Position numbers and translations under genes: made by a program. A DNA stretch of 51,746 nucleotides from Gemmatimonadota bacterium. Lineage in GTDB: Bacteria; Latescibacterota; UBA2968; UBA8231. This document shows positions 14,122 through 16,722 of the stretch, piece after piece; position 1 is the stretch's first letter, and every line of letters starts with the position of its first letter. The stretch is from NCBI GenBank assembly GCA_002724215.1, contig PBOD01000133.1:22519-74264 (forward strand), in the 5' to 3' direction. The notes under the pieces are model-generated. The model did no database searches and was not told the DNA's origin. It saw nothing but the letters and a program-made list of their open reading frames with translations.

Positions 14122-14952
14122 GTGATCGACCGCCAGGCGTTGCAGGACCGACTCATCGCCCAACTCGCCGCCCGCCCCGAAATCCGCTCCGTCCACACCT
14201 TCGGCCGCGCCGTCTCCGGCCAACCCGACGCCTACCCGGACCTCGACCTGGTCATCGCCTCCAGCGACCGGCCCCAAACACAGCGGGTCCTACCCGAACT
14301 CTTCGCCGCTATCTCCCCCGTTCGCAGCCAACTCATCCTCGCCTCCAGCCCCGACCTCTACGCCGCAATGGTCATGCTGCGCGACTGCAGCCCCTATCAG
14401 AAAATCGACCTCTCCATAATCGACCATATCGAATCGCAAGCCCGCTTCGGCCCCTTTCTCGCCCTGTACGAAAACTCTGCCCCCACACCAACCAATGACG
14501 CGCCCCTACCCATTATCGACCTCAACGCCGACCTGCAAAACCAGCTCAACGACATCCTCTTCTCCATCCCCCGCTTCGCCAAGTGCCTCTTCCGCCATGA
14601 CCCCTACCTCTACCAGCGCTTCTACGCCACCGTAGAAAACACCCTGACCCTCCTTTACGAATCTCACCACGACTGGCAGATGCCCAAAAGGGCTAAACTC
14701 AACTCCCGCGAATACCAGCAATTATACGCCGGCCTCAAAGACGCCGAACGTAGCCAAGTAGAAAAAATCCTCCCCTTCGACGCCCGCCCAGACATCCCCC
14801 AGAGCTTCCTCGCCTGCATCGACCTCCTCCTCGATCTCTACCAAACCAAAGCCCAAGCCCTAAATCTCTCCCTGGACGATGCTTTCAACACCTACATACG
14901 CAATTTCCTCTCTACAGAGATCCGCCGCTTCCGCACCCTCCCAACCCACTAG
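14122..14952 (+). CDS. Nucleotidyltransferase-fold (NTase) domain protein
   Basis: A 276-residue protein with a pol-beta-like NTase start: HTFGRAVSGQPDAYPDLDLVI at about 25-45, in which Gly28 and Asp40-x-Asp42 form the G-x-D-x-D metal motif. The rest is mainly helical with a Leu/Tyr-rich tail and resembles the substrate domain of aminoglycoside or small-molecule nucleotidyltransferases. Translation begins at GTG 14122 with no convincing ribosome site. It is the first codon in frame after a spacer containing a hairpin repeat. Codon third positions look more AT-rich than in neighbours, a hint of acquisition. The target (drug, tRNA, protein) is unknown, and no toxin-antitoxin partner is adjacent. 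Confidence 0.65.
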   Translation: MIDRQALQDRLIAQLAARPEIRSVHTFGRAVSGQPDAYPDLDLVIASSDRPQTQRVLPELFAAISPVRSQLILASSPDLYAAMVMLRDCSPYQKIDLSIIDHIESQARFGPFLALYENSAPTPTNDAPLPIIDLNADLQNQLNDILFSIPRFAKCLFRHDPYLYQRFYATVENTLTLLYESHHDWQMPKRAKLNSREYQQLYAGLKDAERSQVEKILPFDARPDIPQSFLACIDLLLDLYQTKAQALNLSLDDAFNTYIRNFLSTEIRRFRTLPTH

Positions 14953-15032
14953 ATCCCAGGCTTGTGTCCATTCCCCTTCTATAGTATCATGTGATTTCAT
15001 CTTATGGGACTCCATATCCACAAAGCAGCGAA

Positions 15033-15185
15033 GGTGCGGGGGTGCGGCGCAGGGTTGTTTTCGGGTGGCTGATGGGGGAAGGGCCGAGCGGGTATGGGGG
15101 ACGAGGGGTTGGGCGAAGTGGTGGGCAGGGTGTGCTCGGAGCGCGGGTATGCAGAAAACAATGCCCGGAGCCGCACTCCCGCACC
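15033..15185 (+). repeat. 153-base imperfect inverted repeat with G-rich loop (MITE-like or structured RNA)
   Basis: The outer arms 15033-15048 and 15170-15185 pair over 16 bases with a single G-T wobble. Inside them GGG/CCC (15052-15054 with 15164-15166) and TTGTTTTC/GAAAACAA (15055-15062 with 15154-15161) extend the stem. The roughly 90-base loop is almost pure G/purine on the plus strand, with several G4-G5 runs. The pentamer CAGCG occurs on both sides (15026-15030, 15187-15191) and could be a target duplication. It fills most of the 288-base gap 14953-15240 and no protein is convincing there. Confidence 0.6.
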
Positions 15186-15240
15186 ACAGCGTGAGACGCA
15201 GCCTCTGAGCGATCAAACAAAGTAAACGGACCAACTAAAA

Positions 15241-16722
15241 ATGCCCCGCATCCTTCTCGCCGAATGCAAACAGGAAATCTCCTCTTTCAACCCCATCATC
15301 GGCGACTACGACAACTTCACCATCAACCGCGGCCCCGAACTCCTCGCCTACCACCAGGATAAAGAAACCGAGCTCGGCGGCGCTTTACATGTATTCGCCA
15401 CCGACCCCGAAATAGAAACCGTCCCCATCTACGGCGCCCGTGCCCCCTCCGCCGGCCCCCTCGCGCAAAAAGATTTCGACCGCATCGCCGCCGAATTACT
15501 CGACGCGATAAAACCCCATGTCGAAGGCGCCGACGCGGTCTTCTTCGCCATGCACGGCGCCATGGGCTGCACCGAAGAGTTGGACCCCGAAGGTTATTTA
15601 TTACAGGAACTGCGCAAACTCACCGGCGCGCAAATCCCCATCGTCATCACCCAGGACCTGCACGGTATCCTCACCGCGCGCATGCTCGAGCACACAAACG
15701 GCCTGGCCATCTACCACACCTACCCCCACGTCGACTTCGCCGACACCGGCCGCCGCGCCGCCGAACTACTGCTCAAGGTCCTCAACGGTGCCGAACCGGT
15801 CGTCGCCCGCGTGCGGGTCCCGGCCTTAGTCCGCGGCGACGAGTTGATCACTGCCTCCGGCGTCTACGGCGAATCGATCCGCTACGCCCAGGCACTGGAG
15901 CAGCAACCCGGTATCCTCGCCGCTGGTATGATGATCGGCAACCCCTTCACCGATGTGCCCGAGCTCTGCTCACAGGCAGTAGTGGTCGCCGATGGCGACG
16001 AAGATGTCGCGCGCAGCGAGGCGCTGCAGATGGCCGCCGACTTCTGGTCGCGCCGCGAAAAGATGCAGCCCGCCCTCATCGATATCGAAGACGCCGTCGC
16101 CCGGGCTTCCGACTACGACGGCCCGGTGATTTTCACCGACGCCGCCGACGCGCCGTCCTCCGGCGCCACCGGCGACAGCAACGCCCTGGTCGCGGCCCTG
16201 CGCGATGGCGGCTACCGGGGCAAGGTCCTCGCGCCCTTAGTTGACGCCCCGGCCGTCTATATGGCGCACGACGCCGGTCTCGGTGCCACCATCCCCGTGG
16301 TCTTGGGTGGTTCACTCGACTCGCGCTTCCCGCCGCTCGACTTAGAAGTCGAAGTCGTGCAACTGGGCGACGGCGAGTACCCGTCCGAATCCTGGGGCAC
16401 GCCCGAACACGCCGGCCACACCGCTGTATTGCAGTGCGACAATCTCACCATCGTCTGCGTCAGCCGCTCGGTGCGTTTTATCGACCGTTCGGTCTTTATC
16501 GCCCATGACCTCGATGCCAAAGACTACGACCTGATCGTAGTTAAATCACCGCACTGCCAGTGGCAATTCTTCGACGAATGGGCCGACGCCAACCTCAACA
16601 TCGACGCCCCCGGCTCGACCAGCGCCAACCTGCCCACCCTGGGGCACAGCGCCTGCCAGCGACCGATGTACCCGCTCGACCCGGACGTCGCCTTTGAACC
16701 CCATGCCGAAATCTTCGCCTGA
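15241..16722 (+). CDS. M81 family metallopeptidase (MlrC/microcystinase C-like)
   Basis: A 493-residue MlrC-type zinc hydrolase; known members cleave linearised microcystin, but most have unknown amide substrates. Likely metal and catalytic residues are His105 in FAMHGAMG, Asp139 and His141 in ITQDLHG, and His163 in HTYPHVDF. The usual N-terminal HETN(T/S)F block reads QEISSF, so the His at that position is Gln11. Length is normal. It begins a tight run with a Hyi-like isomerase and a TauD oxygenase, which suggests a small-molecule catabolic operon and not protein degradation. Confidence 0.85.
   Translation: MPRILLAECKQEISSFNPIIGDYDNFTINRGPELLAYHQDKETELGGALHVFATDPEIETVPIYGARAPSAGPLAQKDFDRIAAELLDAIKPHVEGADAVFFAMHGAMGCTEELDPEGYLLQELRKLTGAQIPIVITQDLHGILTARMLEHTNGLAIYHTYPHVDFADTGRRAAELLLKVLNGAEPVVARVRVPALVRGDELITASGVYGESIRYAQALEQQPGILAAGMMIGNPFTDVPELCSQAVVVADGDEDVARSEALQMAADFWSRREKMQPALIDIEDAVARASDYDGPVIFTDAADAPSSGATGDSNALVAALRDGGYRGKVLAPLVDAPAVYMAHDAGLGATIPVVLGGSLDSRFPPLDLEVEVVQLGDGEYPSESWGTPEHAGHTAVLQCDNLTIVCVSRSVRFIDRSVFIAHDLDAKDYDLIVVKSPHCQWQFFDEWADANLNIDAPGSTSANLPTLGHSACQRPMYPLDPDVAFEPHAEIFA

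Follow-up and report, generated by a model that had tools for sequence, protein, structure and literature searches.

The palindromic sequence that lies 5′ of the MlrC gene in the window (the whole stretch of 51,746 nucleotides analysed here, from a draft genome of Latescibacterota that we call G000) is one copy of a dispersed intergenic repeat, present in at least 70 copies in the genomes of three closely related marine bacteria. The family is previously undescribed, and is apparently selfish or relic DNA rather than a one-off switch for the neighboring gene. In our best explanation, to which we give a probability of roughly 0.6, it is a lineage-specific, non-coding palindromic repeat that works like ERIC or YPAL, i.e. 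like non-autonomous small mobile sequences. The features of the locus are listed in Table 1.

The sequence-only reading of the window had described an inverted repeat of 153 bases, with an outer stem of 16 pairs collinear with two inner stems, and had judged such an arrangement unlikely to occur by chance. This is confirmed; the repeat is real, and its fold is far better than chance. The outer stem comprises 15 Watson-Crick pairs and one G-T pair, and scores 31 as the best 16-bp stem; among 60 dinucleotide-preserving shuffles the highest score was 24 and the mean 19.5. Both inner stems are also present, with GGG (15052-15054) paired to CCC (15164-15166), and TTGTTTTC (15055-15062) paired to GAAAACAA (15154-15161). 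Folding of 15020-15200 gave -79.9 kcal/mol compared with -67.4 ± 3.3 kcal/mol for shuffled sequences (z = -3.8 on the + strand, with 0 of 200 shuffles as good); the hairpin has z = -3.6 on the - strand. An additional helix, absent from the earlier description, lies between stem 2 and the loop (stem 3 in Table 1). It covaries, with CCTGGC/GCCAGG in other copies replacing the CCGAGC/GCTCGG of the window copy. The conserved unit extends a little beyond the limits first reported, running from 15027 to about 15203 and so taking in a small 3′ hairpin. A model built from the other type of copy, with the window copy left out (CM R2), recovered the window copy independently, matching 15027-15200 with E = 3.2e-8. 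A second model (CM R1), built from nine G000 copies of which the window copy is one, gives E = 1.1e-20.

Table 1. Positions of the repeat, its structural elements and the flanking features in the window.
Feature	Position	Strand	Evidence
Whole repeat element (family copy C63), AGC...GCGTGAGACGCAGCC	15027..15203	+	CM R2 and R1 matches
5′ base AGC, GC/GC pairing with 15189-15190	15027..15029	+	GC/GC in 19/34 well-resolved copies
Internal loop 1, 5′ side GAA (family GNA)	15030..15032	+	GNA in 21/34 copies; 2/34 one base off register; 6% expected
Stem 1, 5′ arm, 16 nt	15033..15048	+	Fold, shuffles
Internal loop 2, 5′ side GCA (family GNA)	15049..15051	+	GNA in 16/34 copies
Stem 2, 5′ arm GGGTTGTTTTC	15052..15062	+	Fold, other copies
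Stem 3, 5′ arm CCGAGC	15084..15089	+	CCTGGC in most type-A copies of the window genome, with the opposite arm compensating; alignment columns 64-66 changed on both sides
Stem 3, 3′ arm GCTCGG	15134..15139	+	Comparison with other copies
Stem 2, 3′ arm GAAAACAA-TG-CCC	15154..15166	+	Fold, other copies
Internal loop 2, 3′ side GGA	15167..15169	+	GNA in 17/34 copies
Stem 1, 3′ arm, 16 nt	15170..15185	+	Fold, shuffles
Internal loop 1, 3′ side ACA (family GNA)	15186..15188	+	GNA in 22/34 copies
3′ mini-hairpin GCGTGAGACGC	15189..15199	+	Common to many copies
Candidate promoter TTGTGT-N17-TATCAT, 5′ of the element	14962..14990	+	Same motif at the orthologous place in G006 (by eye)
Upstream co-directional gene, nucleotidyltransferase-like by inspection, no Pfam match	14122..14952	+	
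Downstream gene, M81 metallopeptidase / MlrC	15241..16722	+	PF07364 3.9e-76, PF07171 7.2e-37

A search for further copies had been suggested from the sequence, and these are numerous. In G000 (a 5.85 Mb draft) a DNA search gave one full-length copy at 83% identity together with a series of partial copies, and a second DNA query gave further G000 copies and weak matches in related genomes; DNA matches in searches of genomes were short copies or partial ones. CM R1 found 12-14 copies in G000 and diverged relatives in two other genomes, G005 and G006. With CM R2 there are 15 matches in G000, 20 in G005 and 27 in G006, a few of which are both strands of one palindrome. The set analysed comprises 70 copies plus one found later at a shared site, i.e. 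71, and the census is a lower bound, 56-150 of the more than 700 candidates per genome having been scored for the copy-bearing genomes. The repeat unit is mostly 140-225 bp long. The copies are dispersed, intergenic and non-coding, number in the tens and come without a transposase gene.

Most well-resolved copies have a common layout, consisting of a GC base, loop 1, a stem of 16 bp, loop 2, stem 2 and a variable centre, followed by the mirror image. Stem 2 is 8-11 bp long and usually starts GGG, and the 3′ end is often GCGTGAGACGC. The variable centre is of two types, A with TTGTTTTC and GGGCC, and B with CAAAGCC. The loops were analysed in 34 well-resolved copies in which the arms were placed by complementarity alone. 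GNA is present on both strands of loop 1 in 18 of these and of loop 2 in 12, where about 0.4% would be expected, and shifting the register by one or two bases all but abolishes the signal. Tandem G.A-bracketed loops of this form are known to be stable, whether in DNA or in RNA.

Only three of the 47 species of the class carry the repeat, and these belong to a single Latescibacterota genus. Among 84,980 named genomes the exact type-B pattern matches only SZUA-1027 (Candidatus Latescibacterota) and SI037_bin186. We note that the public record of SI037_bin186 (L207, L208, L210, L211 and L213) is labelled Gemmatimonadetes, yet it belongs to the same genus as the genome labelled Candidatus Latescibacterota. 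In viral sequences there was no match to the type-A pattern, and none of the six contigs containing a 19-mer of type B matched the model. Rfam 15 gave no match for the window copy, nor for the elements among 20 copy-bearing loci, and no paper dealing with both Latescibacter and intergenic repeats was found in the literature searched.

The fold is kept across copies while the letters of the arms change. The alignment analysed has 61 rows; 57 are distinct copies, and the other four are matches to the reverse strand of palindromes already included. Across the aligned copies 86% of cells are paired, compared with 72.5% in shuffles, and there are 227 double-change cells, compared with 68 ± 7. Double changes occur at 29 of the 32 pairs, and the covariation score is 0.328 as against 0.04-0.06 when slid; all five measures exceed those of all 500 shuffles. 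A lack of further copies and of compensatory changes was to have counted against the sequence-only reading, and the analysis shows the opposite on both points. Since the letters of the stems differ while stem length, spacing and the two mismatched loops are retained, this points to recognition of the fold, presumably by some factor.

Strong folding and covariation would also be expected of a structured regulatory RNA, i.e. a leader that acts in cis on the gene following it (the MlrC operon in the window) and is under selection for its fold, and for the window copy the position is plausible, as had been proposed. This copy lies between a candidate promoter and MlrC, and is therefore probably transcribed within the MlrC leader. 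In G006 the MlrC spacer also contains an element, which matches that of the window in position and orientation and lies 3′ of a similar candidate promoter. The promoter motif was matched by eye and was not picked up by a consensus promoter scan, so it is only a candidate. No T-run follows the hairpin, and no intrinsic terminator was found there on the + strand. We note that the nucleotidyltransferase-like gene lies between cysS and MlrC in both G000 and G006, while it is not found there in sister species of the genus with a readable spacer.

For the family the leader role fails. While 29 of the 70 intergenic copies are flanked by two genes that both run in the direction of the copy, 16 are found at convergent gene ends, nine point against both neighbors and nine are divergent. 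With other copies placed after convergent genes or otherwise oriented, being an MlrC leader is not the role of the family. Moreover in sister species MlrC directly follows cysS, with neither the upstream gene nor the element, and where the MlrC site is occupied the bodies are unrelated between species. The lack of an Rfam match also counts against a regulatory RNA.

The changes within the stems tell against it too. Among the non-Watson-Crick cells there are 120 A.C and 84 G.T, even with a model that is biased toward G.T. When orthologous copies of G005 and G006 are compared, 62 one-sided changes disrupt a pair and 17 preserve pairing, and there are five double changes; we estimate that under neutral change with the usual transition bias 25-33% would preserve it. 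Identity between these two genomes is 82% for the elements, 72-90% for the flanking spacers and 92% for genes, and in the L143/L131 pair the element is 75% identical compared with 97% for the upstream flank. The absence of a G.T excess, the predominance of pair-breaking changes and the fact that the element is not clearly better kept than the spacers argue against selection of the resident copies as RNA. The resident copies show no sign of such selection, and their bodies drift about as fast as the flanks. A few copies may be constrained; in the L100/L101 orthologs, for example, all 32 stem pairs are identical while the loop and upstream spacer have changed. The conserved internal loops could reflect selection as RNA in the past. 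With contexts so mixed we regard a cis-regulatory leader as unlikely, and any effects of the window copy on mRNA would be at most incidental.

We also observed by eye that several copies have, immediately 5′ of them, a C-rich flank complementary to the 5′ arm (L034 at about 255-310, which is the G000 copy C229, and L033, L063 and L100). In C229, GTCGCACCCCCGC precedes GCGGGGGTGCGAC. An alternative upstream hairpin could thus form at these four loci.

The size, the inverted ends and the many dispersed, intergenic, non-coding copies are those of a MITE-like element, and to this extent the earlier suggestion of one stands; the target duplication that went with it is not supported. A classical MITE has terminal inverted repeats that are cut and pasted by a DDE transposase with duplication of the target site. 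Such a transposase needs a fixed sequence, whereas the arms of this repeat differ between copies and carry the double changes described above. CAGCG does lie on both sides in the window (15026-15030 and 15187-15191), as had been noted, and was taken as a 5-base duplication. However, CAGCG is conserved in the copies, and AGC...GCG is found at both ends of unrelated insertions; it is the conserved base of the structure, and therefore not a target duplication. No clean insertion junction or target duplication was found at any site compared, either between G000 and G005/G006 or between G005 and G006. A classical MITE is thus improbable.

Nor was a transposition event caught among the compared sites. 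At most of these both G005 and G006 have an element, and sites that appear empty in one of them are mostly remnants of internal deletion. The apparent gaps at L109 and L121 are remnants in which the ends are still present, and that at L091 is a deletion between TAAAGAG repeats; the recent past therefore shows decay and deletion rather than insertion. The sites of the G000 copies C89 and C155 are apparently empty in G005/G006, where a single match spans the join of both flanks, although this rests on implied short spacers, the MAFFT alignment of these sites against G005/G006 being poor. We infer mobility from the copy number and the lineage-specific families rather than from events seen.

The covariation might also be a by-product of palindromes copying arm onto arm during replication, with no selection for the fold at any stage. 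A comparison of G005 with G006 does show that the elements readily acquire mutations and deletions, and there is no excess of G.T over A.C mismatches, both of which are consistent with this. Yet such copying would erase the mismatched 3x3 loops, which are kept with G and A on both sides, and it leaves the fixed 16-bp spacing unexplained. We consider that it has little chance of being the origin of the covariation.

A hairpin-forming extragenic unit, recognized by its fold, is what would be expected of a REP/REPIN or IS200/IS605-type element that a Y1 (RAYT-like) transposase mobilizes as single-stranded DNA, or of a retro-element mobilized by a reverse transcriptase. REPINs are thought to move as single-stranded DNA (PMC3116915). 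They differ, however, in having short conserved 16-mers and a RAYT gene, and REP/REPIN sequences are short palindromes with a GTAG/GGAG-type tag, while the present repeat is much longer. No Y1 transposase (PF01797) or reverse transcriptase (PF00078) was found in the three draft genomes that carry the repeat; as these are 84-93% complete the absence is not absolute. Both families have matches in certain sister species without the repeat, and movement of this kind seems very improbable. A G-quadruplex, suggested earlier from the G-rich loop, is rejected as a feature of the family, as a + strand G4 motif occurs in just 8 of 71 copies, and integron attC sites, considered for the GCCTAAC-like tail of some copies, were rejected by inspection, there being no 5′ partner core site and no arrays of copies.

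Five G000 copies share their site with copies in G005/G006, in the same orientation. For the window copy C63 and for C244 both flanks are seen; the assignment of the other three is based on the downstream gene, orientation and distance. The bodies found at a shared site resemble each other no more than copies picked at random do. Each of the five G000 copies is closest to a paralog of its own genome, C63 being closest to C6, and the positional partners in G005/G006 are mostly near median rank. Random insertion would not be expected to give shared sites whose bodies are unrelated. Strongly different element bodies between well-conserved flanks were also observed at the ortholog sites L148 / G006:C95:91556-92081 and L133 / L146.

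For the ERIC-like repeat that we favor, the following course of events may be envisaged. Source copies would have multiplied in bursts within lineages, through an intermediate recognized by its fold (a hairpin of single-stranded DNA, or a cruciform) and not by terminal sequence. Copies would be filtered for the fold while mobile, and once resident would decay. At old sites other copies within the genome would supply replacement bodies in place, for which gene conversion following hairpin breakage would be the simplest route. We advance more tentatively the possibility that a palindrome recognized by its fold alone (the 16-bp rod with a GNA/GNA loop at either end) homes to sites that already carry a copy, and takes the place of that copy without a change of orientation.

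We know of no autonomous partner of ERIC, and to our knowledge the mechanisms by which small intergenic palindromic repeats such as ERIC move are unknown. ERIC (IRU, RU-1; 127 bp, in enterobacteria) is likewise an imperfect palindrome of similar length, intergenic and present in tens of copies, and its transcripts fold into long stem-loops (PMC2229807, PMC10969869). ERIC copies follow a consensus, end in TA and have target duplications (PMC2229807, Table 1). Unlike ERIC, the Latescibacterota repeat has arms whose sequence is free to change, paired GNA/GNA loops and AGC...GCG ends without TA; the ends set it apart, so that it is not a member of ERIC. YPAL (RU-2; about 168 bp, in Yersinia) is closer in being a palindromic intergenic repeat of the same length with no TA at its termini. 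It has another host, and its inverted repeats are described as internal whereas ours reach almost to the ends; covarying arms do not feature in the description of YPAL consulted (PMC2229807). Correia/NEMIS elements of Neisseria are also long intergenic inverted repeats, which RNase III can cut when they are transcribed (PMC10969869). They are described as having a 24-bp terminal repeat and a target duplication (PMC2229807), neither of which is seen here.

The repeat provides a family, in an uncultured phylum, that allows the fold to be told apart from the sequence. Whether dispersed bacterial repeats turn over in place (concerted evolution) can be tested at the shared sites, where the bodies are unrelated. 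If copies are indeed replaced by homing, positions would persist for long periods while the bodies are exchanged for the type current in the lineage, and the repeat would be a copy-replacement mobile element without an enzyme of its own.
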